Below, one piece after another: positions 8,997-37,906 of a stretch of DNA of 64,000 nucleotides (position 1 is its first letter; every line of letters begins with the position of its first letter). The translations under genes and the position numbers were made by a program. The stretch covers positions 682,001-746,000 of the forward strand of contig NZ_CP115842.1 of NCBI RefSeq assembly GCF_013318015.2. The letters are read 5' to 3'. The notes under the pieces were generated by a model. That model made no database searches. It was not told where the DNA came from and worked only from the letters and a program-made list of their open reading frames with translations. The stretch comes from Agrobacterium tumefaciens. Lineage in GTDB: Bacteria > Pseudomonadota > Alphaproteobacteria > Rhizobiales > Rhizobiaceae.

Positions 8997-9005
8997 ACCC
9001 CGCTT

Positions 9006-10346: not shown

Positions 10347-10369
10347 GTCATTTCCTCCTGAGGACAAGT

Positions 10370-11371: not shown

Positions 11372-11678
11372 CATCACCTCGCATGTCTTTTGATGCATAC
11401 TTTGTCTACTGATTTTATATAGTAATAAAGGACGTTCGTTCCACGTTGCGACGCGATCAGAGAAAATATTGTTTCCCGCTATGGTTTCGGCAGGCGTCTT
11501 TGGCAAAGCAATCCGAAACGATGAGGAAACAGGGCGAAAAACGATGGTGTAAAGCCGCTTTGTGCATCGAGCCGGGACGAAACGGACTTGCGCGGGAATT
11601 CGGTAAAAACTACTTAGTAAGTTGAGAACACCATAACCCGGCACTCAGAAGGTGCTGGCCCTCTTTGCGGATCATGCG
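11372..11678. promoter_or_regulatory. Divergent promoter region, cysteine-conjugate operon/Rrf2 gene
   Basis: These 307 bases contain no gene. AT-rich TTTATATAGTAATAAAGG at 11414-11431 adjoins TTGTCTACTG at 11402-11411, an 8/10 match to the TAGTCNACTA element repeated in this island. Nearer the Rrf2 gene is a perfect 11-base palindrome ACTTAGTAAGT (11612-11622), about 57 bases before the start codon. It is a plausible Rrf2 operator. Confidence 0.5.
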
Positions 11679-13080: not shown

Positions 13081-13131
13081 GCTCAACTCCCTCAAAGAAT
13101 GACCCAGTGAAAGCGCCGGAAAGGCCGGAGC

Positions 13132-16447: not shown

Positions 16448-16645
16448 GTTCTAATCGAGCAAACCGCGCGGAAAGCTTTTCCTCTGCCGCATTCCAAAAG
16501 AAACGCCGCTGCTTGGCCGTGCCGCCGCCGGTTTGTCATTCTCGCACTGTCGGAGACCTCAACCTCCCGAACCTCAAAATGGCAAATGCCGAGCCTCGGC
16601 ACGGCCATTCCACCGCGACATAAAGCGAAAATTCAGGCGGATAAT

Positions 16646-17716
16646 GTGAGCAGCACGAGCGAATTTCTCTGGTACATCCCCAATGACGTCAAACCCGGAC
16701 ATCGGGGCGACGCCGTCAGCGAAAACCACAACAGCCTCGATACTTTAACTACCCATGCCAGGGCGCTGGAAAACCATGGCTGGAAGGGCGCGTTGATCGG
16801 CACAGGCTGGGGGCGTCCGGATACCTTTACGGTTGCGGCGTCGCTTACCGCGCGTACCACCACTTTCGAGCCACTGATCGCTATCCGCCCCGGCTACTGG
16901 AAGCCGGCCAATCTCGCATCGGCCGCCGCCACGCTCGATCAGCTTTCTGGTGGCCGGGTACGAATCAATGTCGTTTCCGGCAGGGACGAGCTTGCGGCCT
17001 ATGGCGACGAAGAAGGCGATCAGGCGCAGCGTTATGCGCGCACGAAGGAGTTCATGCGGCTGGTGCGGCGGCTCTGGACTGAGGAAAACGTCACTTTCAA
17101 TGGCGACCATTTCCGGGTCAAGAACTCCACCGTCTCGCCGCGCATCAGCGAGAGTGCCGGCCGGCCACATCCCAAACTTTATTTCGGCGGCGCGTCCGAG
17201 GCCGCCGAACAGGTTGCCGCAACTGAAGCCGATGTCCAGCTCTTCTGGGGCGAACCGCTCGCCGGCGTGCGCGAAAGGATCGAACGTCTCAGACATTTCA
17301 GTGAGACCCTCGGCCGTGACCTGCCGCCGCTGCAATTCGGTCTGCGGATCACCACGCTAGTGCGCGAAACCGCGGCTGAGGCTTGGCGCGATGCGGAAGC
17401 AAAGGTGGCGGAGATGGCTGCGAACAATGGCGTGCGCTGGAACGATCATCTGCAAGGTGTCGCGGTCGGCCAGCGCCGCCTGCTGGATCTGCACACGCAG
17501 AGCGATGTGCTGGACGACAATCTTTATACCGCACCCGGCAAATTTGGCGGAGGCGGTGCCGCAACGACATGGCTCGTCGGTTCGGCGGAAGACGTCGCCG
17601 CGTCGCTGCGCAAATACCGCGCGCTTGGCATCACCCATTTCGTGCTTTCCGACACGCCCTATCTTCAGGAAATTGAACGGCAGGGCGACAAGCTGTTGCC
17701 GCTACTCCGGGACTGA
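16646..17716 (+). CDS. SsuD-type LLM FMN-dependent monooxygenase
   Basis: A 356-residue alkanesulfonate monooxygenase-like protein. It starts SSTSEFLWYIPNDVKPGHRGD and carries LDQLSGGRVRINVVSGRDELAAYGDEEGDQAQRYARTKEF, HPKLYFGGASEAAEQVAA and WLVGSAEDVAASLRKYRALGITHFVLSDTPYLQEIERQGDKLLP. The GTG at 16646 has AGGCGG five bases upstream, better than the ATG at 16586, which would add 20 atypical residues. It lacks the SsuD cysteine motif, so the substrate probably differs. It uses FMNH2 from a reductase elsewhere and stands alone, convergent with the DszC-like gene. Confidence 0.9.
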   Translation: MSSTSEFLWYIPNDVKPGHRGDAVSENHNSLDTLTTHARALENHGWKGALIGTGWGRPDTFTVAASLTARTTTFEPLIAIRPGYWKPANLASAAATLDQLSGGRVRINVVSGRDELAAYGDEEGDQAQRYARTKEFMRLVRRLWTEENVTFNGDHFRVKNSTVSPRISESAGRPHPKLYFGGASEAAEQVAATEADVQLFWGEPLAGVRERIERLRHFSETLGRDLPPLQFGLRITTLVRETAAEAWRDAEAKVAEMAANNGVRWNDHLQGVAVGQRRLLDLHTQSDVLDDNLYTAPGKFGGGGAATTWLVGSAEDVAASLRKYRALGITHFVLSDTPYLQEIERQGDKLLPLLRD

Positions 17717-17773: not shown

Positions 17774-18949
17774 TCAGCCGCCAACAGCCTTGATGCTCTG
17801 ACGGCCGAGGATAGTTCGGATCATGTGGCTTTGCGGCGCATGCGCCCTTGCCGTTATGGCGTCGCGGTGATGCCGCTCGAGATTATAGTCCCGGCGAAGG
17901 CCGCGATTGCCGCCAAGCTCCAGCGCCAGATCCGTCACTGCCAGCGCATTGTCGATCACCACATGACGAACGGCGAGCGCATCCGTGCCTACCCTCTCAC
18001 CCGCATCGATATCACGCGCGACGGAGCGGAGCAGACGCCTGTTGGCCGCAAGAAGTACCTCGATCTCGCCCACACCTTCCTGAATGCGCGGAATGGATGA
18101 CAGCGGCGCGCCGAGGCTTGCCGGAACATGGCCTGTCAGATGGCGCAAGAGGGCGTCACGCGCCGAAAGCGCGACACCGTGATAGACGGAGGCCAGCAGC
18201 ACGAAGAAATTGTAACCGTCCGCCTCATCCCGCCGCAACGGCTCGTCCGCCGGCTGTTCGGCAACGATATCGGCGAGCGGCACCCTCACATTCTCAAGCA
18301 GGAGATCGTCGCTGGCGGTGGCATACATTCCTGTCGCTTCCCATGCCTTTTCCCGGCCGATGCCCGGCGCATCGAGCGGGACCAGAAGCTGGATCAGACG
18401 CGGCGCCTCTTCCGTCGTGACGGCAAGTACAATCGCCCATTTCAGACCCGGCAGGCCGGTGACGAAGCTCTTGCGGCCATTGACCACCCAGAAATCGCCC
18501 TCGATCCGCGCCGTCGTTTCCGGCAGTCCGCCATGGGCCGGGGAACCGATCCCCGGCTCTGCCTGCGCATTGTTCAGAAGCGCCCGCTCCCTGTTATTGG
18601 CGGCCAGCACTTTTGCCGCGAGATCTGCCGGCCACCTGCCGCGCCGGATGGCAGCATGAACGCTGTAATGCATGGCAAGGATGAGGGCGGTTGACGGATC
18701 ACCCTTGGCAATGGCGGCGATGACGGCATGCGCGGTTTCCATGCCCTCTCCCCAACCACCGTCCTTTTCAGCCGTCACGAGACCAAGCAGGCCAGACTTG
18801 AAAAGTGCCTCGAAATTACCGGCGGCGAATTCGCCGCTTTTGTCATACTCCGCCGCAGTCAGGCTGAAATCTTCGGCGAGCGCGGTTGCGATGGCGACGG
18901 GATTCAAGTGCTGCTCCGGGCTCGGAACGGCGGATAAAGCGCCGCTCAT
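17774..18949 (-). CDS. Acyl-CoA dehydrogenase-fold monooxygenase, SfnB/DszC-like
   Basis: A 391-residue protein of the acyl-CoA dehydrogenase fold. N-terminal FKSGLLGLVTAEKDGGWGEGMETAHAVIAAIAKGDPSTALILAMHY, central WVVNGRKSFVTGLPGLKWAIVLAV and C-terminal LELGGNRGLRRDYNLERHHRDAITARAHAPQSHMI match the SfnB/DszC branch. The LERHHRD...H-P segment is equivalent to the FDR-WRN-RT-H-P active-site block of DszC. These enzymes use FMNH2 and O2 to oxidise sulfur rather than to dehydrogenate CoA esters. Its ATG overlaps the stop of the DszB-like gene by four bases, a tight sign of translational coupling and joint function. Confidence 0.88.
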   Translation of the reverse strand: MSGALSAVPSPEQHLNPVAIATALAEDFSLTAAEYDKSGEFAAGNFEALFKSGLLGLVTAEKDGGWGEGMETAHAVIAAIAKGDPSTALILAMHYSVHAAIRRGRWPADLAAKVLAANNRERALLNNAQAEPGIGSPAHGGLPETTARIEGDFWVVNGRKSFVTGLPGLKWAIVLAVTTEEAPRLIQLLVPLDAPGIGREKAWEATGMYATASDDLLLENVRVPLADIVAEQPADEPLRRDEADGYNFFVLLASVYHGVALSARDALLRHLTGHVPASLGAPLSSIPRIQEGVGEIEVLLAANRRLLRSVARDIDAGERVGTDALAVRHVVIDNALAVTDLALELGGNRGLRRDYNLERHHRDAITARAHAPQSHMIRTILGRQSIKAVGG

Positions 18950-19977
18950 GCCACCGCCCTTTCACTGGTCGTGACGAAACGGTCATCGATCCACGCAGCG
19001 AGATCGAAGTCGTTTTCAAGGAAACCCCATTGATGCAGGAAATCCTTGTAATGGCCGACGGCGGCGACGAGGTCTGCATCGAGGCCAAGACCTAGATGGC
19101 GGTGGACATCCGGGCCGTTGGCGGCCAGAACCTGCTCTTCGGTCGCACCCGCCTCGCGCGCGATAAAACGGCGGGTCTCTTCCGGATGCTGCTCCGCCCA
19201 GAGCGAGGCTTTGGCAATGGCGGCAACCAGCCGCTCCACCAGATCGGGGCGCTCATCGGCAAGTCGTCCGTCAACTGTCAGCACGCGGGGAGAGCCGGAG
19301 TTGATACGTATCTTCGGGTCGGGGTGAAAACCGAATTCCGCCACTTGCACGGCGCCGATCAGGTTCGCGGCGGCGATACCGGCAGTACCCTTGACGAAAA
19401 TCGCATCGACCTCACCCCGCAACAGCGCGATGATCTCCTCACCGAAGGATTGTCGCCGCTTCAGGCCGAAAAGGGATGGTCCCTCCTGTGTCGCCAGCAC
19501 GGAATCCTTGATCACGATATCCTTCAGCTCGATATCCTCGACCCTCAGCCCCTCCAGCGAAAGCGCCGAAACGATGCCCTTCAATGCTGTCGCTCGCATG
19601 AAATCGACAATCCCATCAGGTCTGCGCGGCACACCGAAACGGCGGCCGACGAGATCGGCAAGCGAGCGGATACCGTTTTCCGGAAGGGTGATGATCGCCT
19701 GGAACTCATCGGTCCAGGTAATGCCGATAAGACGCGTATTGCGCCCTTCCGAGCGGGCGCGGATAGGGGGCACATTACCGCCGTGGCGGAAGGACCATTC
19801 CAGCGTGTGGTTGAAATGGCTCTGCCGCACAGAACGATCCGGTGAATCGATGATGGATTTCAGCGATATCCCCACATCCTCAAAGGTCTGCGCGAGATAA
19901 CCGAGCTGCGCCGCAAGCCCCACGGGCGTGGGCACCGGGCAACGTGTGTACCAGATTTCAGAAAGTGTCGTGCTCAT
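18946..19977 (-). CDS. DszB-like sulfinate desulfinase (binding-protein fold)
   Basis: A 343-residue protein that would routinely be called a nitrate/sulfonate binding protein, but it starts MSTTLSEIWYTRCPVP with no signal peptide. It keeps the DszB active-site pattern: C13 in RCPVP, then H54 and R64 followed by GGN-PP. In 2'-hydroxybiphenyl-2-sulfinate desulfinase I recall C27, H60 and R70 followed by GGE-PP, with the same ten-residue His-Arg spacing. TRLIGIT, DLVGRRFGV and ERLVAAIAKASLWAEQH also match DszB. I infer cytoplasmic release of sulfite from an organic sulfinate. The gene lies between a Tat-exported peptide-type binding protein and a DszC-like gene, overlapping the latter. Confidence 0.82.
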   Translation of the reverse strand: MSTTLSEIWYTRCPVPTPVGLAAQLGYLAQTFEDVGISLKSIIDSPDRSVRQSHFNHTLEWSFRHGGNVPPIRARSEGRNTRLIGITWTDEFQAIITLPENGIRSLADLVGRRFGVPRRPDGIVDFMRATALKGIVSALSLEGLRVEDIELKDIVIKDSVLATQEGPSLFGLKRRQSFGEEIIALLRGEVDAIFVKGTAGIAAANLIGAVQVAEFGFHPDPKIRINSGSPRVLTVDGRLADERPDLVERLVAAIAKASLWAEQHPEETRRFIAREAGATEEQVLAANGPDVHRHLGLGLDADLVAAVGHYKDFLHQWGFLENDFDLAAWIDDRFVTTSERAVA

Positions 19978-20046
19978 GGCTTTGGCCTCGATGAAAACGA
20001 TGACACCAGAAAGCGATGCTGCGGTGCCCGTCGACGAAAGGGAGAT

Positions 20047-20078
20047 GCCCCTGCCCGCCGCAAACGGCGGGCAGGGGC
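20047..20078 (-). other. Strong hairpin between binding-protein and desulfinase genes
   Basis: A perfect 14-base stem (20047-20060 with 20065-20078) with a CAAA loop follows the binding-protein stop by about 12 bases. No U-run follows on the minus strand. It probably protects the binding-protein mRNA and lowers downstream expression, a usual arrangement in importer operons. Confidence 0.65.
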
Positions 20079-20089
20079 TGGCGAGACGA

Positions 20090-21697
20090 TCAGGATGCCG
20101 CGATATGCGCGAAGGCCAAGCTGCCCGCGACGCCTTCTGCACCGATAGTGTGATCGGCAATGCGCTTGTTGAAGATGGTGATTTCAGGTGCAGCAACGAT
20201 ATCGATGGCAGGAACGTCATCGACGAGGATCTGCTGTATTTCCTTCCATTGCGCGACGCGCTTGTCCGGATCGATCTCGACAGCGGCAGCTTCCAGCAGC
20301 GCATCCACCTTGGGGTTGCTGTAGGCGGCGCCATTTGAGAAGGGCACGCCCTTCTTGAAGTTTTTCGACCAGTATAGCCGCTGCACACCGACGGTCGGGT
20401 CGAAGAGATTGCTCATGCCCTCATAGGCAAAATCGAAATCGCGATCCGTGTAGATGCGCTTGGTATAGGTGGCGAAATCCTGCGTCCGCACCGTCACATC
20501 CACACCGACCTTCGCCAGCGCCTGGCGAATATAGTCCGCGCCACGCGGATAGGCTTCGGTGCTCGGCACATAGTCCAGATTGAGCTTGAAACGGATACCA
20601 TCCGCGCCGCGCTTGTATCCCGCCTCGTCCAGCAGCGCTTCGGCCGCCTTCAGATCGATCGGATAGGTCTTCAGATCGTCCACGAACCATTTCGTCAGCT
20701 TCGGATTGATCGGGCCGGTGATTGTCGCGCCATAGCCATAATTGACCGTGTTGAAGATGACTTTGCGGTCAATGACATGCGCGAAGGCGCGGCGGACGCG
20801 GACATCCTTGAACACGTCCTTCTCGAGGTTGAACTCCACGCGGCTGATCGAATTGGTATATTGATAGCCATTGGTCTCGAAGCCGAGGCTCGGCAGCTCC
20901 TTCAGCCGGTCGAGATCGCTATAGGCGACCGGGGTGCTCGGAGCGAGATCGATCTCACCGGTTTCGATTGCGATGGCACGGGCCGACGCATCTGGAATGA
21001 AGCGAACAATCAGCTTGTCGAGATAGGGGCGCGGCGCATCCCAATAATCGGCATTGCGCTCAAAAACGATATGGCTGCCGCGCACCCATTCCTTGAACTT
21101 GAACGGGCCGGTACCAACAGGCGCGAGATTGATGGGATTTTCGGTGACTTTCGTGCCTTCATAAAGATGCTTGGGCACGATAGGCGTTTCAGCAGCGGCA
21201 AGCGCCGTTATCAGATACGGCGCAGGCTTGGAAAGAACCAGCACGGCCGTCAGATCATCCGGGGTCTCGACAGCAGTGAGGTTCAGGAAGGTATTGCGCC
21301 CGCGCGGATGCACTTCCTTGATGGTGTTGATGGAGAACGCCACATCGGCAGATGTGAAAGGCTTGCCGTCATGCCATTTTACACCGGGTCTCAGATTGAA
21401 GGTGTAACGCAGGCCATCGCCGCTGACATCCCATGATTTGGCCAGGAGCGGCTTGGGGTTGAGGTCGAAATCATAGGTCAGCAGGCCTTCCGTGACCTTG
21501 GGCGATATGTAGACGGAATTATAGGCCGTGTGCGCGATCGTCGTCAGAACCGGCGGCTCCGATGAGATGAGTAGGGTGGCTGTGCCACCGCTTGCCGGCT
21601 CCGCCGCGTTGAGCTTCAGCCCCGGCAACGACACCACGCCAAGAGCCACCGACGCCAGCAGAAATCCGCGGCGCGTCGTCTGGTTGAAAACAGTCAT
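20090..21697 (-). CDS. Dipeptide/nickel-type ABC transporter substrate-binding protein, Tat signal
   Basis: A 535-residue SBP_bac_5 (cluster C) binding protein. The N-terminus MTVFNQTTRRGFLLASVALG carries a twin-arginine motif and hydrophobic core, with cleavage near NAA/EPASGG. The mature protein has LAKSWDVSGDGLRYTFNLRPGVKWHDGKPFTSADV, the family signature, and YRADIR-like FSNGAAYSNPKVDALLEAA near the end. The start has AAGGAGAGG. It is divergent from the DppBCDF-type genes (21967 onward), which must be its importer, and heads the operon with the DszB-like and DszC-like genes. The ligand is therefore likely an organosulfur compound. Confidence 0.92.
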   Translation of the reverse strand: MTVFNQTTRRGFLLASVALGVVSLPGLKLNAAEPASGGTATLLISSEPPVLTTIAHTAYNSVYISPKVTEGLLTYDFDLNPKPLLAKSWDVSGDGLRYTFNLRPGVKWHDGKPFTSADVAFSINTIKEVHPRGRNTFLNLTAVETPDDLTAVLVLSKPAPYLITALAAAETPIVPKHLYEGTKVTENPINLAPVGTGPFKFKEWVRGSHIVFERNADYWDAPRPYLDKLIVRFIPDASARAIAIETGEIDLAPSTPVAYSDLDRLKELPSLGFETNGYQYTNSISRVEFNLEKDVFKDVRVRRAFAHVIDRKVIFNTVNYGYGATITGPINPKLTKWFVDDLKTYPIDLKAAEALLDEAGYKRGADGIRFKLNLDYVPSTEAYPRGADYIRQALAKVGVDVTVRTQDFATYTKRIYTDRDFDFAYEGMSNLFDPTVGVQRLYWSKNFKKGVPFSNGAAYSNPKVDALLEAAAVEIDPDKRVAQWKEIQQILVDDVPAIDIVAAPEITIFNKRIADHTIGAEGVAGSLAFAHIAAS

Positions 21698-21882
21698 GCG
21701 ATACCTCTCCTTAATTGAACCGGCGAAAAACCGGCAAAACTGAACGGCCGCGCTTGGGAAGAAGTTTGTTCCGCAGACGAGAGTGAGATTGGCATGAAGC
21801 ACCAACCATTCTCATAAATAGGAATTATCTTTTCTTTATGGCGCATTTTTCCGTAAATTTCAGAAAATAATTCTATTACTCT

Positions 21883-21915
21883 TTGACAAATTCCATAAAA
21901 TTAGTCAACTAATAC
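21883..21915. promoter_or_regulatory. Divergent promoter with TTCCATA and TAGTCAACTA elements
   Basis: TTGACA at 21883-21888 could be a -35 box for the plus-strand importer operon. It is followed by TTCCATAAAATTAGTCAACTAATACC (21891 onward), which joins the TTCCATA block and the TAGTCAACTA near-palindrome (21902-21911). The whole gap 21698-21966 is AT-rich and holds no gene. Confidence 0.5.
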
Positions 21916-21966
21916 CAACGCCTTTACGGGCCGATTTCATGTTTTCAAGCGAATGGACTGGAGCCG

Positions 21967-22956
21967 ATGTCGAATTCGAAACGGATTTTATCGCAGGCAA
22001 GGCGGGTGGCCATTCAGGCCGTCCCGACGGTTCTCGGTATCGTCATCCTGAACTTCTTCCTGCTGCAGCTGGCGCCTGGTGATGCGGCTGACGTGCTGGC
22101 CGCGGAAGCGGGTTCGGCGACCGTCGAGACCATGGCCGAAATTCGCTCACGCTTCGGGCTCGACCTGCCGGTCGTCCATCAGCTCATGAACTATCTCGGC
22201 AATCTGGCCCAGTTCAGCCTCGGCTTTTCACCCCGCTACGGCATGCCGGTCGCCGATCTTATCGGCCAGCGGTTGCCCGGCACGCTGGCGCTGATGGGAG
22301 CAGCACTTGGCATTGCGATTTTCGTCGGCGTTTTCCTCGGCTCCATCATGGCGCTCTTTTCCGGCAAGCTGCCGGACCGGATCATTTCGATTGGCTCGCT
22401 AATCTTTTATTCCGTGCCGGGCTTCTGGATCGGCCTGATGCTTATCCTCACGTTCTCGGTCAAGCTCGGCTGGCTTCCGTCTGGCGGCGACAGCACCATC
22501 GGCAGCAGCCTCACCGGCCTCGACGCTTTTCTGGACAGGCTGCGCTATATCGTTCTCCCCGCCCTTTCGCTGGCGCTTTATTTTCTGGCGATTTATGCCC
22601 GCCTCACCCGCGCGGCGATGCTGGAAGTCAAATCCCAGGACTATGTGCGCACGGCACGGGCAAAAGGCGTTTCGCCTTTCCGGCTCACCACACGCCATAT
22701 TCTGCGCAACGCGCTCATCCCAATCACCACCATGGCCGGCATGCATATTGGCGGCCTGCTGGGCGGTGCGGTCGTGGTCGAGACGGTCTTCAGCTGGCCA
22801 GGCCTTGGCCGTCTTGCTTTCGAGGCCGTCATGGCCCGCGATTTCAGCGTGCTGCTCGGCATTCTGCTTCTCTCTTCCCTTGTCGTCATCATTGTCAATG
22901 CCGCCGTGGACCTGTTGCAGGCATGGCTCGACCCCCGCATCGGAGAAAGCCGATGA
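21967..22956 (+). CDS. ABC transporter permease, DppB type
   Basis: A 329-residue inner-membrane permease with about six hydrophobic segments. The conserved cytoplasmic EAA loop reads YVRTARAKGVSPFRLTTRHILRNALIPI (about 228-255), and the C-terminus is AAVDLLQAWLDPRIGES, standard for DppB/OppB. GGAG precedes the ATG. First gene of a seven-gene operon: permease, permease, ATPase, ATPase, aldo-keto reductase, DszC-like, LysR. It pairs with DppC next door, whose ATG overlaps its stop by four bases. Confidence 0.94.
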   Translation: MSNSKRILSQARRVAIQAVPTVLGIVILNFFLLQLAPGDAADVLAAEAGSATVETMAEIRSRFGLDLPVVHQLMNYLGNLAQFSLGFSPRYGMPVADLIGQRLPGTLALMGAALGIAIFVGVFLGSIMALFSGKLPDRIISIGSLIFYSVPGFWIGLMLILTFSVKLGWLPSGGDSTIGSSLTGLDAFLDRLRYIVLPALSLALYFLAIYARLTRAAMLEVKSQDYVRTARAKGVSPFRLTTRHILRNALIPITTMAGMHIGGLLGGAVVVETVFSWPGLGRLAFEAVMARDFSVLLGILLLSSLVVIIVNAAVDLLQAWLDPRIGESR

Positions 22957-23948
22957 ATTCCTCCCAGACATCAGCAGTTCTCGACGCGGCCGAACTCAGT
23001 GCCGAAGAGAGCAATCCCAAACCTAAAAAACCTGAAGAAAAAGTCTGGCCCTATATCCATGCGCCGGACGCGCTTTCAGCCCGCTCCGTCTCCGTGCCGC
23101 GGCGCGGCTTGCGGCGGGAACTGAAGATTTTCCTGACCAATCCCAACGCCATCGTTGGGCTGCTGTTCCTTGCCACCGTCCTCATCGCCGCTGTCACGGC
23201 CCCGCTGATCTATCCGGGCGATCCGCTGGAAATGGTGGCCCGCCCCTTCCTCTGGCCCGGCCAGAATCCAGCCTATCCGCTCGGCACCGATTCCATGGGG
23301 CGTGATGTGCTGGCGGGCATCGTGCATGGCGCAAGCATCTCGCTCACCGTCGGTGTCGTCGCCACCCTGATAGGGCTGACGATCGGCATAACAATCGGTG
23401 CTTTCGCCGGTTATTTCGGTGGCATCATCGACGATATTCTTGTAAAGATCATCGAAATCTTCCAGACATTGCCGAACTTCGTGCTGCTGGTGGTGCTCGT
23501 CGCCATTGCCCAGCCTTCGGTCACCACGGTAACCTCGGCAATCGGCATCATTACCTGGCCACTTGTTGCGCGCCTGACCCGCGCCGAATTCCGCGCCATC
23601 CGCGAGAAGGACTATGTGCTTGCCGCACGAAGCCTCGGTTATGGCCATGCGCGTATCGTGTTTCAGGAAATTCTGCCCAACGCCCTGCCGCCGATCATCG
23701 TCACCTCCTCCGTCATGGTGGCGGGTGCGATCCTCATGGAAGCAGCCCTTTCCTTCATGGGACTTGGCGACCCCAACCGTGTTTCCTGGGGTTCGATGAT
23801 CGGGTCGGGACGCGACGTCATTCGCACCGCCTGGTATCTGACCGCCCTTCCCGGCCTCGCCATCGTCTTCACCGTCATTTCGCTGAACCTCATCAGCGAC
23901 GGTCTCAACGATGCGCTCAACCCCCGTTTTTCGGAGGAACGCCGATGA
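22953..23948 (+). CDS. ABC transporter permease, DppC type
   Basis: A 331-residue permease. It has a long cytoplasmic N-terminus (about 65 residues, Glu/Lys/Pro-rich), then the DppC/OppC N-terminal domain with FLTNPNAIVGLLFLATVLIAAVTAPLIYP, the motif HPLGTDSMGRDVL-like YPLGTDSMGRDVLAG, and the EAA loop YVLAARSLGYGHARIVFQEILPNALPPI. I chose the start at 22953 for the ATGA overlap with the preceding gene. It forms the channel with the DppB partner. Confidence 0.94.
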   Translation: MNSSQTSAVLDAAELSAEESNPKPKKPEEKVWPYIHAPDALSARSVSVPRRGLRRELKIFLTNPNAIVGLLFLATVLIAAVTAPLIYPGDPLEMVARPFLWPGQNPAYPLGTDSMGRDVLAGIVHGASISLTVGVVATLIGLTIGITIGAFAGYFGGIIDDILVKIIEIFQTLPNFVLLVVLVAIAQPSVTTVTSAIGIITWPLVARLTRAEFRAIREKDYVLAARSLGYGHARIVFQEILPNALPPIIVTSSVMVAGAILMEAALSFMGLGDPNRVSWGSMIGSGRDVIRTAWYLTALPGLAIVFTVISLNLISDGLNDALNPRFSEERR

Positions 23949-24920
23949 GCAAACTTATCGAAGTCCACGATCTTTCCGTCAGCTTCGGCTCAGCCCAACC
24001 GGTCAAGGGCGTCAGCTTCGATGTGGAGTCCGGCGAAATGCTGGCAATCGTCGGCGAAAGCGGCTCGGGAAAATCACTGACTGCGCTCGGCCTGATCGGC
24101 CTGTTGCCGTCGCATGCAAAAACCGGCGGGCGTGTTCTGCTCGAAGGCCGCGATCTCCTGCCGCTTTCCGAGCGGCAATGGCGCGGCATTCGCGGCCGCG
24201 ATATCGGCATGATCTTTCAGGAACCGATGACCTCGCTGAACCCGGTCCTGACGGTGGGCGAACAGATCATCGAGGTGCTGCGCATCCATGAAAGGATCGA
24301 CAGGCACCAGGCGCGCAAACGCGCCATCGAGCTTCTGGACCTCGTCAATATTCCCGACGCCCAGCGCCGCGTGGACGATTATCCGCACCAGCTTTCCGGC
24401 GGCATGCGCCAACGCGTCATGATCGCCATCGGCGTTGCCTGCAATCCCAAACTACTGATCGCCGATGAGGCGACGACCGCGCTCGACGTGACGATACAGG
24501 CGCAGATCCTGCAGCTGCTCGACAATCTGCGCCGCGATCTCAACATGGCCATCATCCTCATCACCCACGATCTTGGCATTGTGGCGCAATGGGCCGATCG
24601 GGTCATGGTCATGTATGCCGGCCGCAAGGTGGAAGAAGGATTGCCTGAACCGGTTTTCTCCAATCCTTACCACCCCTATACGCGCGGCCTGCTGGCTGCC
24701 TCTCCGCGCGCCGAAGACGGCCAGCATTATCGCGACGGGCCACTCATCGAAATTCCGGGTTCAATCGTTTCGGCCACGGGGGAGCGCGGCTGCGCCTTCC
24801 GGCCACGCTGTCCGAGCGCCCGCGGTTTCTGCGGGCAGTTCGTACCGCCGCTGAGGCTCGTCTCGGAAGGCCGCTACGCCGCCTGCCCCTTCGTATCCCC
24901 CACATCCCAAGAGGTATCCG

Positions 24921-24943
<23 letters not shown>
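23945..24943 (+). CDS. ABC transporter ATP-binding protein, DppD type
   Basis: A 332-residue ATPase. Walker A GESGSGKS (about 38-45), Q-loop [11 protein letters not shown], signature LSGGMRQRV, Walker [13 protein letters not shown] and H-loop ITHD are all present. The C-terminal oligopeptide-type extension carries the cysteine motif [15 protein letters not shown]. The start overlaps the preceding stop by four bases, and its own 3' end overlaps the next gene by 23 bases. It energises the organosulfur-linked importer. Confidence 0.94.
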
Positions 24944-25856
<913 letters not shown>

Positions 25857-25874
25857 ACTGAAGGAGCAACCATA

Positions 25875-26930
25875 ATGGTCGACTATCGCTATCTCGGACG
25901 CAGCGCGCTGAAAGTTTCACCGCTGAGCCTCGGCACGATGATGTTCGGAGGCCCGACGCCGGATGACGTGGCCTTCCGCATCATCGACAAGGCACGCGAG
26001 CAGGGCATCAACTTCATCGACACTGCCGATGTCTATCACGACGGCAAGTCGGAAGAAGTCGTTGGTCGCGGTATCAAGGCCAGTCGCGATCACTGGGTTC
26101 TGGCAACGAAATTCGTCAATTCCCACACCAAGGGTCCGAACCTTGGCGGCCATTCGCGCAAATGGGTGATCGAGACCGTCGAGAATTCGCTTCGCCGTCT
26201 CAACACCGACTACATCGATATCCTCTATTTCCACCGCGCCGTCTTCGACGCGCCGCTGGAAGAGCCGGTACGCGCCATTGCCGATCTCATCCGTGCGGGC
26301 AAGCTGCGCTATTTCGGCGTTTCCAACTTCCGGGGCTGGCGCATCGCCGAAATTTCGCATTTGGCCGATCAGCTCGGCATCGACCGGCCTATCGCCAGCC
26401 AGCCGCTCTACAACATCGTCAACCGCACGGCCGAAGCCGAGCAGCTGCCTGCGGCACATAATTACGGGCTGGGCGTCGTTTCCTATTCGCCGCTGGCACG
26501 TGGCGTGCTGACCGGCAAATATCAGCCGGGTGAGCAGCCGGGCGCAGATACCCGTGTCGGCCGTGGCGACAAGCGGGTTCTGGAAACCGAATGGCGCCCC
26601 GAGTCGGTCGAAATCGCCCAGAAGGTTGCGGCGCACGCCGCATCAAAGGGTGTTTCGGCAGCGGATTTTGCGCTCGCCTGGGTGCTGAACAACAAGTTCG
26701 TCACCGCCGCGATCACCGGCCCGCGCACTGAAGACCATTGGGACGGTTACGTCCGCGCCCTCGATGTGAAGATCGATGCGGAAGACGAGGCGCTGGTCGA
26801 CAGCCTTGTGACGACAGGCCATCCCTCGACACCCGGCTTCAACGATCCGAGCCATCCCGTCGAAGGCCGCGTGCCGCGCAATATCGAACCGGCTCCCCGC
26901 CCGGTCGTCAAGCCGCGCGCGGTCGCCTGA
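25875..26930 (+). CDS. Aldo/keto reductase
   Basis: A 351-residue NADPH-dependent aldo-keto reductase of the YajO/YghZ-like group. The catalytic tetrad is visible: D and Y in FIDTADVYHDG (about 49-59), K in VLATKFV and H in ILYFHRA. The NADP-binding end is KFVTAAITGPRTEDHW. AAGGAG precedes the start. It sits in the importer operon between the ATPase and the DszC-like gene. It may reduce the aldehyde or ketone left after oxidative C-S cleavage; that role is inferred from position only. Confidence 0.92.
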   Translation: MVDYRYLGRSALKVSPLSLGTMMFGGPTPDDVAFRIIDKAREQGINFIDTADVYHDGKSEEVVGRGIKASRDHWVLATKFVNSHTKGPNLGGHSRKWVIETVENSLRRLNTDYIDILYFHRAVFDAPLEEPVRAIADLIRAGKLRYFGVSNFRGWRIAEISHLADQLGIDRPIASQPLYNIVNRTAEAEQLPAAHNYGLGVVSYSPLARGVLTGKYQPGEQPGADTRVGRGDKRVLETEWRPESVEIAQKVAAHAASKGVSAADFALAWVLNNKFVTAAITGPRTEDHWDGYVRALDVKIDAEDEALVDSLVTTGHPSTPGFNDPSHPVEGRVPRNIEPAPRPVVKPRAVA

Positions 26931-26947
26931 TCGTCCAGAAGAAAATG

Positions 26948-26971
26948 CCTGCGGCGCGACCGTGCCGCAGG
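26948..26971 (+). other. Short intercistronic hairpin
   Basis: Eight-base arms CCTGCGGC (26948-26955) and GCCGCAGG (26964-26971) lie in the 69-base gap before the DszC-like gene. No U-run follows, so partial attenuation at most. Confidence 0.4.
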
Positions 26972-26999
26972 TCATCACATCCGCTCAGGGAAATCCGCA

Positions 27000-28238
27000 A
27001 TGTCCAATCCTAAAATACAGACCGCAACCACCGATAATTCCAGCGTGCCGAGCCGAGACGACATTCTGGCCCGCGCCAGGGACATTGCGGCTGTTGCCGC
27101 CAAGGATGCCGCTCGCCGTGAGCGTCAGCGGGAACTTCCCTTCGAAATCTTCGGCCTGATCAAAGAAGCCAGGATCGGCACGCTGCGCATCCCCGAGGCC
27201 AAAGGCGGGCCGGGAGGCTCGATTGCGGACTATATAGAAGTCCTGATGATCCTCGGGGAAGCCGACAGCAATATTCCGCACGCACTCCGCAGCCATTTCA
27301 ATTTCACAGAAAACCTCGCTCTCACACCGATCGAGCTCGAGGATCGGCGGCACCTCGAAAATGTCCTCACCGGCAAGCTCTTTGCGGGCGCCAGCACGGA
27401 ACAGGGCACCAAACGTCCCGGCGAAATCACCACGCGCCTCAGCGCCGATGGCGACCGTTATCGTCTGAACGGCCGCAAATGGTATGCGACCGGCACCGCC
27501 TTCGCAGATTTCGGCACCTTTAGCGCTGTCGGCGACGACGAACAGCCGATCGGCGTCCTCATTCCGCTTGATCGGCCCGGGATCACCATCCTCGACGACT
27601 GGGACAGCATGGGCCAGCGCATGACGGCAAGCGGCGGCGTTTTGCTTGAAAATGTCGAGGTGCTCCCGCATGAACTGACGACCCGCAAGCTCGGCAGCCA
27701 GATCGGGCGCCACAGCTCGGCCATGCGACAATTGCACCTCGCTGCCTCTGCCGCCGGTGCCGTTCAGGGTGCACTCAACGATGGCATCGACTATGTTCTG
27801 CGCCAGGCGCGCACCACGCTCCACAGCAGCGCCGAAACCGCCAATCAGGACCCCTTTGTGCAGAAGATGCTCGGCGAGATCAGCGCCGGTGCCTTCGCCG
27901 TCAAGACGCTGATCCGCGAGGCGGCAAGAACGCTCGACAGGACCGCCGCCGCCTTTTCCAGCGGCGACGAAGAGGCGATAGAAGCGGCTTTGCTGGAAGG
28001 TTCTCTCGCCACCGCCCGTACCCAGATCATCGCATCGCAGCTTTCACTAACGGTCGCCACCAACCTTTACGAACTCGGCGGCGGATCGGCGACGTCCAGC
28101 GAGCGGAATTTCGACCGCCACTGGCGCAACATCCGCACGGTCTACAACCACAATCCGCTTGCCCACAAGGCGCGTGTCATCGGCGACTATTATCTCAACG
28201 GCACCACGACGCACCTCAGGGAAGGCCGGGTATTCTAG
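27000..28238 (+). CDS. DszC-type FMNH2-dependent sulfur monooxygenase (acyl-CoA dehydrogenase fold)
   Basis: A 412-residue protein and the clearest DszC homologue here. The C-terminal block FDRHWRNIRTVYNHNPLAHKARVIGDYYLNG aligns with FDRFWRNVRTHSLHDP...LNG of dibenzothiophene monooxygenase as I recall it. The middle LNGRKWYATGTAFADFG and DWDSMGQRMTASGGVLLENVEV also match. DszC adds oxygen to sulfide or sulfoxide sulfur with FMNH2. AGGGAAA precedes the ATG. It follows the aldo-keto reductase and precedes the LysR gene in the importer operon. The real substrate need not be dibenzothiophene; smaller thioethers are more likely in soil. Confidence 0.9.
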   Translation: MSNPKIQTATTDNSSVPSRDDILARARDIAAVAAKDAARRERQRELPFEIFGLIKEARIGTLRIPEAKGGPGGSIADYIEVLMILGEADSNIPHALRSHFNFTENLALTPIELEDRRHLENVLTGKLFAGASTEQGTKRPGEITTRLSADGDRYRLNGRKWYATGTAFADFGTFSAVGDDEQPIGVLIPLDRPGITILDDWDSMGQRMTASGGVLLENVEVLPHELTTRKLGSQIGRHSSAMRQLHLAASAAGAVQGALNDGIDYVLRQARTTLHSSAETANQDPFVQKMLGEISAGAFAVKTLIREAARTLDRTAAAFSSGDEEAIEAALLEGSLATARTQIIASQLSLTVATNLYELGGGSATSSERNFDRHWRNIRTVYNHNPLAHKARVIGDYYLNGTTTHLREGRVF

Positions 28239-28257
28239 CGATAAAGGGAAAACGGCC

Positions 28258-29229
28258 ATGAGAACGGAATTCATCCCTCCTTCGGTCGCAAGAGCGGCTT
28301 TCCGGTTGCCGACGCTTTCCCGGCTGCCGCCGCTGACGGCCCTGCGCGCATTTGTCGTGGCCGCGCGTCACGCCAGCTTCTCGCGGGCGGCGGAAGAACT
28401 GCATGTCTCGACTGCCGCAATCGGCCAGCAGGTGCGCATTCTGGAAACCCATCTCGGGCAAACACTCTTCAGCCGCCAGCGCGGCGAGCTGGTGCTGACC
28501 GAGGCCGGCAGCACGCTTTACCCCGGCCTTGCGGACGCTTTCGAGACGATGATCGGCAGTCTTTCCGATCTCATGGCCTCCGGCGGCCGGCGGCAGGTGA
28601 GGGTTCTGGCGGAAGGCTGTTTTGCGGCCCGATGGCTGGCACCACGGTTGGGAACCATCGTTCCAGCCCTTGGAGACGTAGATATCTCGATTGAATCTCT
28701 CGAGGGCGACGCCATCGACCTCACGCATTTCGATGCCGATTGCGCGATCGTCGCCACCCACGGACAAATCCCCGGTTTCATTCACGAACCGCTTTTTGCC
28801 GACACCGTCAGTGCCGTCTGCACCCCGGATTTTGCCACCCGCTACCAGCTTGGTGGTGAACCCGAGCGGCTTCGGGATATCTCTTTTGCGATGTTGCGCG
28901 GCAACGGCACCGATGCTGCCTTCGAATGGGCAAACTGGCTGCGCGCCTGCCGCATTCCGCTTCGGCTTTCCGCAGCAGGACCGCGCTTTTCGCGTCAGAC
29001 CGCGCTGATAGAGGCACTCTTGTCCAGCCACGGCATCGGCCTTGCGCGCCACTCGCTCATTTCCGAAGAGCTTCGAACCGGCCGTCTGATCGCACCTTTC
29101 GGTGTGCCTCAGCCGACCGCCAGCCGGTATCATCTTCTGACCAGTCCTGACAGGCGGCGGCTGCCGGAAATCGCATCTCTACTCGCCTTGTTGCGCGAGG
29201 ATACACGCTCTCTCGAAGCCGCCGCCTGA
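28258..29229 (+). CDS. LysR family transcriptional regulator (GcvA-like)
   Basis: A 323-residue LysR protein. The N-terminal helix-turn-helix region is LTALRAFVVAARHASFSRAAEELHVSTAAIGQQVRILETHLGQTLFSRQ (about 25-75), followed by the periplasmic-binding-like effector domain. I chose the ATG at 28258 (AAAGGG upstream); an earlier start overlaps the DszC-like gene. It is the last gene of the importer operon rather than divergent from a target, which is unusual for LysR proteins. It probably regulates this operon and perhaps the shared TAGTCNACTA promoters. Confidence 0.9.
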   Translation: MRTEFIPPSVARAAFRLPTLSRLPPLTALRAFVVAARHASFSRAAEELHVSTAAIGQQVRILETHLGQTLFSRQRGELVLTEAGSTLYPGLADAFETMIGSLSDLMASGGRRQVRVLAEGCFAARWLAPRLGTIVPALGDVDISIESLEGDAIDLTHFDADCAIVATHGQIPGFIHEPLFADTVSAVCTPDFATRYQLGGEPERLRDISFAMLRGNGTDAAFEWANWLRACRIPLRLSAAGPRFSRQTALIEALLSSHGIGLARHSLISEELRTGRLIAPFGVPQPTASRYHLLTSPDRRRLPEIASLLALLREDTRSLEAAA

Positions 29230-29245
29230 ACACGCCCGTCCCACA

Positions 29246-30598
29246 TCAGGCGCGTTCCCTTTGCAACTCCCTGGTCGTATGGATGTTTTCCGGCCGGGGC
29301 AGGCCGTAATGATCACGCAGCGTGTCGCCCTCGTAGTCCTCGCGGAACAGCCCGCGCTGTTTGAGGATCGGCACGACCTCGTCCACGAAAATATCGAACC
29401 CGCCATTCAGCCATGGCGGCATGATGTTGAAGCCGTCGGCAGCACCTTCACGGAACCAGGTCTCTATCCAGTCTGCCACCTGTTCCGGGGTTCCCGAAAT
29501 CACCTTGTGGCCGCGCCCGCCGGCAAGCCGGTGCAGCAATTGCCGGATCGTCGGATTTTCCCGGTCGATGACATCGAGAACCAGCTGATGCCGGCTGCTG
29601 TCCGCCTGCGCACGCGTCGCTTCCACCGCCTCCTTCGGCAACGGCTGATCGAGATCGGCCGATGAGAGATCAATGCCTGTAATGCGCTGCAACTGCCCAA
29701 GCGAAAAGGCCGGCTGGATGAGATCGTTGAAACTCGCCTCGAGCTTTCGCGCCTCCTCTTCGGTGGAGGCGATGAAGGGGCTGATCCCCGGCAGGATTTT
29801 CACATGGGCGGGATTGCGCCCCGTGGCCGCCACGCGCCTCTTTATGTCGGAATAAAAAGACCGCGCACTCTCCAGAGTTTGATGCGCGGTAAAGATTGCC
29901 TCGGCATAACGGGCAGCAAAGCCACGACCGTCCTCCGAAGAGCCGGCCTGCACATAGACCGGCCTGCCCTGCGGCGAGCGTGGCAGGTTGAGCGCGCCCC
30001 GCACCCGGTAGAACTCGCCCTCGTGATTGGCAGGATGGATGCGGTCGGTATCGGCGAAAAGACCGCTCTCCTTGTCGGCGACGATGGCATCGTCTTCCCA
30101 GCTGTCCCAGAGCTTCGTCACCACATCGACGAACTCAGTCGCCTGCCGGTAACGGTCGGCATGCGGCGGATGCTGCTGGAGATTGAAGTTTCCGGCCGCC
30201 GCATCGGCCGAGGTCGTCACGATGTTCCAGCCGACCCGGCCGCCGCTGATATGATCGACCGAGGCGAACAGCCGCGCTAGATTGTAAGGCTCGTAATAGG
30301 TGGTGGAGGCCGTCGCAATGAAGCCGATCTTTTCGGTGACGGCCGCCAAGGCCGCCAGCATGGTGATCGGTTCCAGCCGGTGCCGGGCGGCATAGCGGAT
30401 ATTGGCGTCCAGCACCGGCGCATCGGCAAAGAAAATGGCATCCAGCTTTGCCGCCTCGGCCTTGCGGGCGATATCCTGGTAGAGCCTTATATCCGTGACG
30501 CGCAGTGGCTCCGACTCGGGGTGGCGCCAGGCTGCTTCATGGTGCCCACCCGGATAGATGAACGCATTGAGGACCAGCTTCTCGGATTTTCTGCTCAT
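29246..30598 (-). CDS. DszA-type LLM FMN-dependent monooxygenase
   Basis: A 450-residue NtaA/SnaA/DszA family protein. It carries GGHHEAAWRHPESEPLRV, ATASTTYYEPYNLARLFASVDHISGGRVGWNIVTT, NLPRSPQGRPVYVQAGSSEDGRGFAARYAEAIFTAH and VVPILKQRGLFREDYEGDTLRDHYGLP, all close to DszA. DszA cleaves a C-S bond of a sulfone to yield a sulfinate, the substrate class of DszB. It is the last gene of a minus-strand operon after a CPHC protein and a Dpp-type binding protein. It converges on the LysR gene with 16 bases between. Confidence 0.92.
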   Translation of the reverse strand: MSRKSEKLVLNAFIYPGGHHEAAWRHPESEPLRVTDIRLYQDIARKAEAAKLDAIFFADAPVLDANIRYAARHRLEPITMLAALAAVTEKIGFIATASTTYYEPYNLARLFASVDHISGGRVGWNIVTTSADAAAGNFNLQQHPPHADRYRQATEFVDVVTKLWDSWEDDAIVADKESGLFADTDRIHPANHEGEFYRVRGALNLPRSPQGRPVYVQAGSSEDGRGFAARYAEAIFTAHQTLESARSFYSDIKRRVAATGRNPAHVKILPGISPFIASTEEEARKLEASFNDLIQPAFSLGQLQRITGIDLSSADLDQPLPKEAVEATRAQADSSRHQLVLDVIDRENPTIRQLLHRLAGGRGHKVISGTPEQVADWIETWFREGAADGFNIMPPWLNGGFDIFVDEVVPILKQRGLFREDYEGDTLRDHYGLPRPENIHTTRELQRERA

Positions 30599-30653: not shown

Positions 30654-32249
30654 TTACGCCTCCTTCGTCACCCACGCTTTGGCGAGATTGCCGCTGAGCC
30701 CCTCCGCCCCTGTCGCGTAATCCTTGATGCGGACGCTGCCGACGACCGGCTGGATTGGCGAAACGAGATTGATGACGGGAAGATCCTTGGCGACGACGGC
30801 CTGAAACTCCTTGAAGAAGGCTGCGCGCTTTTCGATATCCGGCTCCACCGCGGCCGCTTCCAGCAGCCGGTCCACTTCCGGATTGGCGTAGTGGCTGGCG
30901 TTTGAGAACGGCAGGCCGATCTTGAAGTTCTTGCTCCAGTAGACACGCTGCACGCCGGCCGTCGGATCGAAGGTATTGGAGAGGGATTCGACTGAAAGGT
31001 CCCAGGCGCGATCGGTATAAACGACCTTCACATAGGTGCCGAAATCGAATTTCTGGATATCCGCCTCGATGCCGATCTTGGAAAGCGCCTGCGCTATGAA
31101 ATCCGAATAGGTCTGCGGGTTGAACGGGTTGGTGGTGACCCTGAGCTTGAAGCGCTTGCCGCCATCCTTGCGCGGAAAGCCCGCCTCATCCAGCAGCTTT
31201 TCCGCCAGCGCGACGTCGAATTTGGCAAAACCGATATCCGGATTGTGGAACTTCGCAAGGCCGGGGCTGATCGGCGTGGGCGATGGCACGGCGTAACCGT
31301 AAAGCACGGTATCGATCAGCGCCGGAACGTCGATCGCGTGGGCAATAGCCTGCCTCACCTTCAATTCCTTGAGATATTCGTTCTCAAGGTTGATGACGAG
31401 CTGGTTCTGCTGGCCGGCATAGGCGTAGATGCGGTCATCCACCTTCAGCGTCGGGATGGATTTCAGTCGTTCCAGATCGGCAAGCGCCACCGGGTTCGGG
31501 CCAATGTCGCCCTCTCCGGTTTCCAGCGCCGCCGCGCGAGCGCCCGCATCATTGATGAGGCGAATGACGACGCGGTCGAGATAAGGACCTGACGCGTCCC
31601 AGTAGTCGGCATTCTTTTCCAGAAGAATATGGCTGCCCGGCACCCATTCCTTCAGGACGAAGGGGCCGCTGCCGATGATCTGGGCGGGTTTTGGATTGTC
31701 AGTCGGCTTGAAGGTCTCGAAGATGTGCTTTGGCACAACAGGCGATTCCGACGAGGCGAGCGCGGTTATCAATCCCGGCGCCGGCTTGGAAAGCTTCACC
31801 TTCGCGACCAGCGGATCGGAAGTATCGACGCTTTCAACATGCGAGAAAGTCGCCCGGCCGCGCGGATGGGCTTCCTTCAGCCGCAGGATCGAGAACTCCA
31901 CATCCGCCGATGTCACCGGCTTGCCGTCATGGAACTTCGCATTCGGCTGCAGATGAAAGACATATTCCAGCCCGTCGGCGGAAACGCTCCATTCTTTGGC
32001 AAGGCTCGGCTTGGGCGAAAGTTCGTAATCGTACGTCAAAAGCCCGTCGTAAATCTTCGAGCCAATGAACTGCGGACCGCCCGCACTGGTATTGATTGCC
32101 ACGAGCTGCGTCGGCTCGGGAAAATAGACGATCTTGAGCGTGCCGCCCGAAACCGGCTCTTCAGCAGCAGCGAAAGAACCACCTGGAAGCGCCACGAAAG
32201 CGCCGGCGGCGAGTGCAATTTTATGAAACTGGCGTCTGGAAAAGGTCAT
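30654..32249 (-). CDS. Dipeptide/nickel-type ABC transporter substrate-binding protein, Tat signal
   Basis: A 531-residue SBP_bac_5 protein. The twin-arginine leader MTFSRRQFHKIALAAGAFVALPGG precedes a mature domain with LAKEWSVSADGLEYVFHLQPNAKFHDGKPVTSADV. It is clearly paralogous to the binding protein at 20090-21697 (shared GGT-LLTYD, PRGR-TF, GVQRVYWSKNFK-G-PFSNA-Y-NP blocks). GGAGATAG precedes the ATG. No permease genes accompany it, so it probably feeds the importer at 21967-25856. Confidence 0.92.
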   Translation of the reverse strand: MTFSRRQFHKIALAAGAFVALPGGSFAAAEEPVSGGTLKIVYFPEPTQLVAINTSAGGPQFIGSKIYDGLLTYDYELSPKPSLAKEWSVSADGLEYVFHLQPNAKFHDGKPVTSADVEFSILRLKEAHPRGRATFSHVESVDTSDPLVAKVKLSKPAPGLITALASSESPVVPKHIFETFKPTDNPKPAQIIGSGPFVLKEWVPGSHILLEKNADYWDASGPYLDRVVIRLINDAGARAAALETGEGDIGPNPVALADLERLKSIPTLKVDDRIYAYAGQQNQLVINLENEYLKELKVRQAIAHAIDVPALIDTVLYGYAVPSPTPISPGLAKFHNPDIGFAKFDVALAEKLLDEAGFPRKDGGKRFKLRVTTNPFNPQTYSDFIAQALSKIGIEADIQKFDFGTYVKVVYTDRAWDLSVESLSNTFDPTAGVQRVYWSKNFKIGLPFSNASHYANPEVDRLLEAAAVEPDIEKRAAFFKEFQAVVAKDLPVINLVSPIQPVVGSVRIKDYATGAEGLSGNLAKAWVTKEA

Positions 32250-37899: not shown

Positions 37900-37906
37900 G
37901 ACGCCC

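Follow-up and report, generated by a model that had tools for sequence, protein, structure and literature searches.

A DszB-like protein in a candidate import-coupled organosulfur desulfination module of Agrobacterium tumefaciens

In fuel desulfurization DszB is studied as a slow enzyme that limits the overall rate, and in the open-licence PubMed Central (PMC) literature consulted no natural role for it elsewhere is established. The monooxygenases SfnG and DszA cleave a C-S bond to give a carbonyl compound and a sulfinate, and to our knowledge the sfn pathway for dimethyl sulfone has no importer or desulfinase of its own. According to the accessible part of PMC10863075, the products of the CmoJ route of S-alkylcysteine salvage in Bacillus subtilis are an aldehyde and a sulfenic acid, and cysteine is recovered. 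DszABC-like peptides are reported in the accessible part of a Chelatococcus proteomics study (PMC4839641). Here we analysed a 64,000-nucleotide stretch of Agrobacterium tumefaciens DNA (the window, G000:C2:682001-746000, within a 6.0-Mb genome of 6 contigs), in which the gene for a DszB-like protein stands beside a Dpp-type importer and several flavin-dependent oxygenases. An initial annotation had seen in it a DszABC-like set coupled to this importer. In our reading, held with moderate confidence, the core of the locus is an import-coupled organosulfur desulfination module. The core consists of the following features, apart from 29246, which adjoins it; they are named below by their first position:

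17774-18949, minus strand: acyl-CoA (coenzyme A)-dehydrogenase-type flavoprotein, 391 amino acids; its gene has a 4-base ATGA overlap with the DszB-like gene
18946-19977, minus strand: DszB-like sulfinate desulfinase candidate, 343 amino acids (DszB match and catalytic residues)
20090-21697, minus strand: Dpp/Opp-type solute-binding protein (SBP_bac_5 domain match), first in the minus-strand unit; ATG start read at 21697
21883-21908, unstranded: palindrome TTGAC-N16-GTCAA, candidate operator in the divergent promoter, conserved across loci
21967-22956, plus strand: DppB-type permease (domain and model matches)
22923-23948, plus strand: DppC-type permease (domain and model matches)
23945-24943, plus strand: DppD-type ATPase (domain and model matches)
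24921-25856, plus strand: DppF-type ATPase (domain and model matches)
25875-26930, plus strand: aldo/keto reductase (family match)
27000-28238, plus strand: SfnB/DszC/MsuC-class flavin monooxygenase candidate (SfnB model, 297 bits)
28258-29229, plus strand: LysR-family regulator (family match)
29246-30598, minus strand: NtaA/DmoA-family flavin mononucleotide (FMN) monooxygenase; nearest solved structure YtnJ, which we take to be CmoJ

On the minus strand the receptor gene 20090 is followed by the DszB-like gene 18946 and the flavoprotein gene 17774. The plus-strand unit diverges from it in the order DppB-DppC-DppD-DppF, aldo/keto reductase 25875, 27000 and LysR 28258. The importer (21967-25856, plus strand) is complete, with a pair of permeases and a pair of ATPases that carry oligo_HPY domains, and together with an SBP_bac_5 receptor it has the composition of a Dpp/Opp-type system. 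The initial annotation had predicted the importer and two of its receptors; SBP_bac_5 receptors are encoded at 20090 and 30654, and a third at 32926. All genes that it named proved to be open frames, the DszB-like one after shortening to 18946-19977; the frames in the open-reading-frame list were too long for this gene (480 amino acids) and for receptor 20090 (571 amino acids), and the starts were taken from the sequence.

As in the 4S dszABC cluster (pMyong1), a DszB-family protein with Cys/His/RxGG residues, an NtaA/DmoA monooxygenase and DszC-class flavoproteins are clustered at this locus. In contrast to dszABC, where the order dszA-dszB-dszC is seen (reference locus L090), the order here is receptor, DszB-like protein and acyl-CoA-dehydrogenase-type protein, with the NtaA-type gene in another unit. 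The DszB-like protein is 28% identical to pMyong1 DszB, its pocket residues differ and no DszC equivalog is present, whereas a Dpp-type importer and an aldo/keto reductase are attached in divergent units with a conserved palindrome. The locus resembles the sfn genes in 27000, which is SfnB-like, and in 35843, which is SfnG-like (182 bits), each scoring below the model cut-off. It also resembles CmoO/CmoJ salvage of B. subtilis, since 29246 is closest to YtnJ among solved structures and the M20 amidohydrolases 7733 and 34550 could serve as deacylase, but the CmoJ route as given in the accessible part of PMC10863075 lacks a desulfinase step.

Among the sequences of solved structures, 18946 matched only DszB entries at E ≤ 0.01 (2de2, E 9.9e-16; 2de3, E 2.9e-14). 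An AlphaFold model built with 25 sequences (predicted local distance difference test, pLDDT, 88.3; predicted template-modelling score, pTM, 0.86) ranked three DszB chains first in a Foldseek comparison (E from 1.3e-20 to 5.9e-20; template-modelling (TM) scores, normalised to the query, of 0.72-0.73), followed by TauA and SsuA at E of about 1e-14. The accessible part of PMC6100217 gives Cys27, His60 and R70-x-G-G as the catalytic residues of DszB, and these align with C13, H54 and R64-x-G66-G67 of 18946. By inspection, 18946, which begins MSTTLSEIWYTRCP, has no signal-peptide-like start. 18946, called DszB-like by the initial annotation, is a DszB homologue with its catalytic residues kept, and we infer desulfinase activity for it from sequence and modelled fold.

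To follow the family across bacteria, we used 80 loci with 10-kb flanks, namely the best 80 of 555 confirmed DszB-like relatives from a scan of genome contigs, so that distant relatives are under-represented. L101, which is the same contig as L059, was excluded from the counts, and L099 and L100 (24-26% identity, binding-protein-like) from the residue count. The His and the RxGG residues are kept in all 80 loci and in 120 of 120 proteins. The Cys is kept in 119 of 119 proteins reaching that column (of 120) and in 80 of 80 loci, the latter partly by selection because one search pattern included RCP. Sixteen second-type DszB-like copies in these loci retain Cys in 15 and His in 15 cases, one copy having Ser for Cys. 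In 15 far DszB-like proteins (including pMyong1 DszB), His and Arg are present in 15 and Cys in 11; the remaining four carry Ser, each in tandem with a Cys copy, and the same change has been reported to inactivate DszB. The four tandem Ser-for-Cys paralogues lie at L092:7368-8369, L093:9825-10838, L094:8948-9961 and L095:8898-9911, and L065 has a further one from position 1870.

The residues lining the pocket are less like those of DszB. In an alignment of 232 proteins, both window proteins included, W155 of DszB is replaced by Thr in 213 and the segment carrying F203 is absent in 230, while F61 is retained in 228. A hydrophilic substrate, as suggested by the initial annotation, would be compatible with the importer and with the loss of the pocket aromatics W155 and F203, and dibenzothiophene is an unlikely substrate. 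The DszB reaction has been calculated as an electrophilic aromatic substitution (accessible part of PMC6100217), so the sulfinate is probably aryl or alkenyl and bound in a pocket unlike that of DszB. At least 899 DszB-like relatives were found at E ≤ 0.001 among 8000 scored. Many DszB-like proteins are currently named ATP-binding cassette (ABC) transporter substrate-binding protein: of the 120 listed relatives (P0001-P0120), those with names are mostly called this or nitrate/sulfonate transport protein, and few are called desulfurase or DszB.

The neighbourhood of the DszB-like gene is conserved across genera. Presence was scored for each gene by set identity thresholds within 10 kb (≥70% for 29246 and ≥45% for LysR 28258). 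In the 80 loci, DppB was found in 77, DppC in 77, DppD in 75 and DppF in 74, all four being present in 73. The receptor accompanied the DszB-like gene in 76 loci, the aldo/keto reductase in 73, a 17774 homologue in 68 and a 27000 homologue in 60. At least one of three luciferase-type partners was present in 77 loci (35843 homologue in 45, 39322 homologue in 25, 29246 homologue in 17). Genes more than 10 kb away are missed by this count, and hence 35843 to 40629 and the M20 gene 7733 are hidden in Agrobacterium-like loci, where 35843 and 39322 were scored as absent. Other neighbours were less frequent (16586 homologue in 25 loci, LysR in 18, flavin reductase in 14 and SsuD in 11), and LysR 28258 was present beside the module in all 16 Agrobacterium-like loci and in 2 of the 64 others.

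The arrangement of these genes varies between groups. In many loci of Rhizobium the receptor and the DszB-like gene are separated by the 35843 homologue; in those of Devosia, Ensifer and Sinorhizobium the second DszB-like, NmrA-type and 39322-type genes come after, and 39322 homologues lie inside the module in these and other loci. Agrobacterium has the whole set, divided between 17.8-28.2 and 35.8-40.6 kb. The nearest named locus, L009 of Agrobacterium tumefaciens CNPSo 675, encodes a copy 100% identical to 18946. In the eight betaproteobacterial loci the order is changed, with the receptor and the 35843 homologue found in all eight, DppB and DppC each in six, and DppD and DppF each in four. 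Loci of Variovorax, Comamonas, Sphingobium and Acetobacter likewise contain the module in rearranged form, and L096, found by another route, is one further importer-linked locus among the far relatives. A Variovorax plasmid locus additionally carries amidase, cysteine dioxygenase, metC and hydantoinase genes, a company that weakly hints at amino-acid- or peptide-derived sulfur compounds. Occurrence across sampled genomes is patchy: a DszB-like match was present in 6 of 151 genomes of the family sample (one a fragment; two genomes at 30-33% identity) and in 9 of 398 of the phylum sample (two remote and binding-protein-like; two shared with the family sample). In addition, a class-A flavin adenine dinucleotide (FAD) monooxygenase-like gene (L067:14195-15445 and relatives) occurs in or near the module in 19 records from Sinorhizobium, Ensifer, Devosia, Mesorhizobium, Chelatococcus, Sphingobium, Acetobacter and others.

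Within the genome itself, organosulfur-type genes are densely packed across about 3-41 kb of the window. Eight of the 24 luciferase-family (PF00296) matches of the genome fall inside the window, where 0.26 would be expected (binomial P 1e-10, a value calculated once the window had been selected), as do 4 of 35 SBP_bac_5 receptors (0.37 expected) and 1 of 12 flavin reductases. The luciferase-family excess and the recurrence of the neighbourhood across genera indicate that the genes are grouped beyond chance.

The two units are also linked by a conserved promoter element. In 73 of the 80 loci the gene divergent from DppB is a receptor, DszB-like or 35843-like gene, and 69 of these 73 intergenic regions contain TTGAC-N16-GTCAA, one each, with the consensus TTGACTAA-N10-TTTGTCAA. 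No other copy was present in the 1,620,295 bases of the 80 loci. The divergent promoters without the exact palindrome are those of L075, which has a two-mismatch site, and of the betaproteobacterial L079, L083 and L085. After removal of near-duplicates (38 of 69 sites kept), the mean information in the spacer, which is free of the search pattern, was 1.19 bits per column versus 0.16 and 0.56 in the flanks; the arm values are mostly set by the pattern itself. In its own genome the palindrome occurs exactly at one place and with two mismatches at five, compared with one for the reversed control pattern. Because both units start from a shared promoter region that carries the conserved palindrome, importer and enzymes are probably co-regulated. 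The palindrome was also considered as two overlapping sigma-70 promoters, and this was rejected, as a consensus scan called no promoter in that intergenic region.

A matching arrangement is found on pSymA of Sinorhizobium meliloti. According to the accessible part of PMC5940162, the five-gene operon sma2085-sma2077 and the divergent eight-gene operon sma2087-sma2101 are up-regulated on loss of pSymB, and both responses were traced to region B180. The five leftward genes at pSymA 1.17-1.19 Mb fit DppBCDF and the aldo/keto reductase by count, orientation and map place, and pSymA carries the palindrome at the matching place. Mapping the locus tags in this way, we infer that the two operons are this module. 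The initial annotation knew of no described system of this composition, and searches of the open-licence PMC literature found none described by function; the joint up-regulation of the S. meliloti operons on the same pSymB deletion is on record, reported without a function in the accessible part of PMC5940162.

Two regulators were compared with region B180. The Rrf2-family, CymR-like protein 11652 was considered as reader of the palindrome and as the factor lost with B180, but this prediction failed, no relative being present at E ≤ 1e-3 in pSymB 635940-869642. LysR 28258 had only a 32% partial match in B180. Rrf2 genes are located near the module in L026, L029, L062, L065, L066, L071 and L081 and in 12 Agrobacterium-like loci. 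Between an Rrf2 gene and DppB, L081 has a site resembling the palindrome, with two mismatches when read on one strand and four when read on the other. The CymR-like gene 11652-12128 itself is met again close to the module in loci of Neorhizobium, Rhizobium oryzicola, Devosia and Sphingobium.

Both acyl-CoA-dehydrogenase-superfamily proteins of the core had been called DszC-like. For 27000 the SfnB/DszC class assignment stands, with SfnB as the nearer relative: it scored 297 bits with the SfnB model (TIGR04022, cut-off 430.9) and 124 bits with the DszC model (cut-off 850), and it aligns with DszC, TdsC and MsuC over the HxPxxxK stretch, having HNPLAHK where those have HDPxxYK. A separate SfnB above the cut-off is encoded in the same genome (607 bits, G000:C3:612310). 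17774 scored 82 bits with the DszC model against the same cut-off of 850, its best structures being 5z8t/5gj7 at 172 bits and the DszC structures scoring about 66 bits; the description as DszC-like is thus valid at the superfamily level only. In short-chain acyl-CoA dehydrogenase (SCAD), the Glu of the C-terminal YEGT motif is a catalytic residue. 17774 has Ala (in AHAP) at this position, which speaks against a classical dehydrogenase without showing a monooxygenase. In S. meliloti 1021 the frame of the 17774 homologue (L089:15339-16274) has only 311 amino acids, and the match spans 68% of 17774.

Three proteins of the window exceed the cut-off of the NtaA/DmoA family model (TIGR03860, 279.7 bits): 29246 with 590 bits, 9006 with 521 bits and 39322 with 384 bits. 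29246 had been described as DszA-like, and this did not hold, as its nearest structures are YtnJ (361 bits), a nitrilotriacetate-monooxygenase entry (341 bits) and then DszA (322 bits). Its role as the DszA of the module was ruled out by its distribution: 15 of the 17 loci with a ≥70% homologue belong to the 16 Agrobacterium-like loci, and relatives at 46-52% occur in a few others. Of the oxidise-cleave-desulfinate set with an importer that the initial annotation had envisaged, the physical and evolutionary coupling was recovered, and what fell away was 29246 as the usual C-S-cleaving enzyme, the 35843 and 39322 types being commoner.

Based on these assignments, a five-step pathway can be proposed. 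Judging from the genes, one or more Dpp-type receptors and DppBCDF would import a water-soluble thioether, sulfoxide or sulfone, and 27000, perhaps with 17774, would oxidise the sulfur towards the sulfone with reduced flavin from a reductase such as 13132, as their families suggest. Cutting of one C-S bond would then fall to a luciferase-type FMN monooxygenase, of the 35843 or the 39322 type or, in Agrobacterium, also to 29246 or 16586; a carbonyl compound and a sulfinate are proposed as its products because of the chemistry of SfnG and DszA. The DszB-like protein would desulfinate the sulfinate to sulfite, as its fold and catalytic residues indicate, and the aldo/keto reductase may reduce the aldehyde or ketone set free by C-S cleavage.

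Since related clusters are found in many other bacteria, this oil-desulfurization enzyme family probably has a wider natural role. Tentatively, and as a possibility that we would not yet rate at even chances, the DszB family may consist mainly of widespread importer-linked desulfinases. Hyphomicrobiales and Burkholderiales would have a dedicated pathway to import a water-soluble thioether or sulfone of aryl or alkenyl type (for example an S-conjugate), oxidise it, cut it to a carbonyl compound and a sulfinate and free sulfite, with an alphaproteobacterial regulator reading the module-specific palindrome. With the importer, oxygenases, carbonyl reductase and private regulatory site, the physiological setting of the family becomes testable in common plant-associated bacteria, and the module points towards an organosulfur source in soil that still lacks a name. 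Hundreds of candidate desulfinases are on offer, including natural Cys-to-Ser paralogues.

The locus could also be a general sulfur-starvation island, in which the importer, desulfinase and monooxygenases share a starvation signal and act on different substrates without forming a single pathway. The window does contain other sulfur-type units, namely the SsuD protein 13873, which is above its curated cut-off (588 versus 518.2 bits), and, at 3.3-11.6 kb, an ABC system of the amino-acid type together with M20, NtaA/DmoA and MsnO8-type enzymes, and the share of luciferase-family matches inside it is likewise expected of an island. However, the core partners occur together in 60-77 of the 80 loci, which SsuD and the flavin reductase do not, despite lying equally within the flank here, and the palindrome is restricted to one divergent promoter; we therefore consider an island unlikely. 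A catabolic role of 17774 and 27000 as CoA-ester dehydrogenases, in a cluster unrelated to sulfur, is highly improbable. The best scores of 17774 are with acyl-CoA-dehydrogenase-type models and structures, but it has lost the SCAD Glu, 27000 aligns with the sulfur monooxygenases, and both proteins accompany the DszB homologue.

That the DszB-like protein is an NMT1/SsuA-type substrate-binding or THI5-like protein and not an enzyme seems quite improbable to us. This assignment agrees with its Pfam family (NMT1), with an NCBIfam SsuA_fam match below cut-off, with the public names of many relatives, and with SsuA and TauA as the next folds at similar TM-scores. The SsuA_fam label is also given to pMyong1 DszB, however, and 18946 combines conserved catalytic residues and a start unlike a signal peptide with DszB as its best match by both sequence and fold; moreover, the DszB-like pair of L098 has next to it both a permease and a separate protein whose start does resemble a signal peptide. 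Least probable of all is a true dibenzothiophene 4S pathway. DszA-, DszB- and DszC-family genes do lie within 13 kb, and Agrobacterium strain MC501 is cited in the accessible part of PMC4327732 as desulfurizing dibenzothiophenes. Against this stand the scores of 17774 and 27000 with the DszC model, with which pMyong1 DszC reaches 865 bits, the low identity of the DszB-like protein to pMyong1 DszB and its altered pocket, the missing dszABC order and the peptide-type importer.

Several observations weigh against an import-coupled desulfination module. TM-scores alone do not clearly separate DszB from SsuA (target-normalised TM-score up to 0.74 for SsuA), and not all members of the family are catalytic, Ser taking the place of Cys in four far proteins out of 15 and in one of the 16 second-type copies. 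17774 is a remote relative of DszC and may not act on sulfur. Seven of the 80 loci are without one or more of the four Dpp genes, some through contig or flank ends, the far relatives L092-L095, L097 and L098 have no clear Dpp importer, and in Agrobacterium the 35843 and 39322 enzymes are encoded at a distance of 16-20 kb from 18946. The betaproteobacterial loci yielded no copy of the palindrome, a three-mismatch search of the window alone was no better than chance (2 matches, a number reached by 28 of 100 shuffles), and no candidate regulator could be tied to it. In S. meliloti, six rightward genes were recognised versus the eight counted in the accessible part of PMC5940162.

The core is flanked by further genes of related families:

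11652-12128, plus strand: Rrf2-family, CymR-like regulator (Rrf2 110 bits, cut-off 73.3; CymR 86 bits, cut-off 195)
13132-13677, minus strand: flavin reductase candidate for two-component monooxygenases (Flavin_Reduct domain)
16586-17716, plus strand: SsuD-like luciferase-family monooxygenase adjoining 17774 (family match)
30654-32249, minus strand: second SBP_bac_5 receptor (domain match)
32926-34515, minus strand: third SBP_bac_5 receptor (best specific model GsiB, 185 bits, under the cut-off of 594)
34550-35749, minus strand: M20 amidohydrolase (family match)
35843-37012, minus strand: SfnG-like luciferase-family monooxygenase (182 bits, cut-off 383)
37003-37899, minus strand: NmrA/short-chain dehydrogenase/reductase (SDR)-type reductase (family match)
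37907-38962, minus strand: second DszB-like protein, 53% identical to 18946 (sequence comparison)
39322-40629, plus strand: NtaA/DmoA-family monooxygenase (384 bits, cut-off 279.7)

The Flavin_Reduct protein at 13132 is the flavin reductase that the initial annotation had placed there. None of the receptors 20090, 30654 and 32926 exceeded the cut-off of any specific NCBIfam model (peptide, glutathione, nickel and opine classes), and the best-matching structures of 20090 are spread across many ligands. Positions 12136-13095 encode a shortened SfnB/acyl-CoA-dehydrogenase-like protein of 319 amino acids, only the first half of which is matched by models. A frameshifted SfnB was ruled out here, since the 319-residue form is intact in seven of nine other loci examined, with 318 residues in one and only a remote relative in one. 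The region 3300-11644 contains two SBP_bac_3 receptors, a fused permease-ATPase, an M20 amidohydrolase, an NtaA/DmoA enzyme and an MsnO8-type luciferase-family enzyme, a gene make-up that, we presume, resembles the ytm/cmo S-alkylcysteine salvage genes of B. subtilis.

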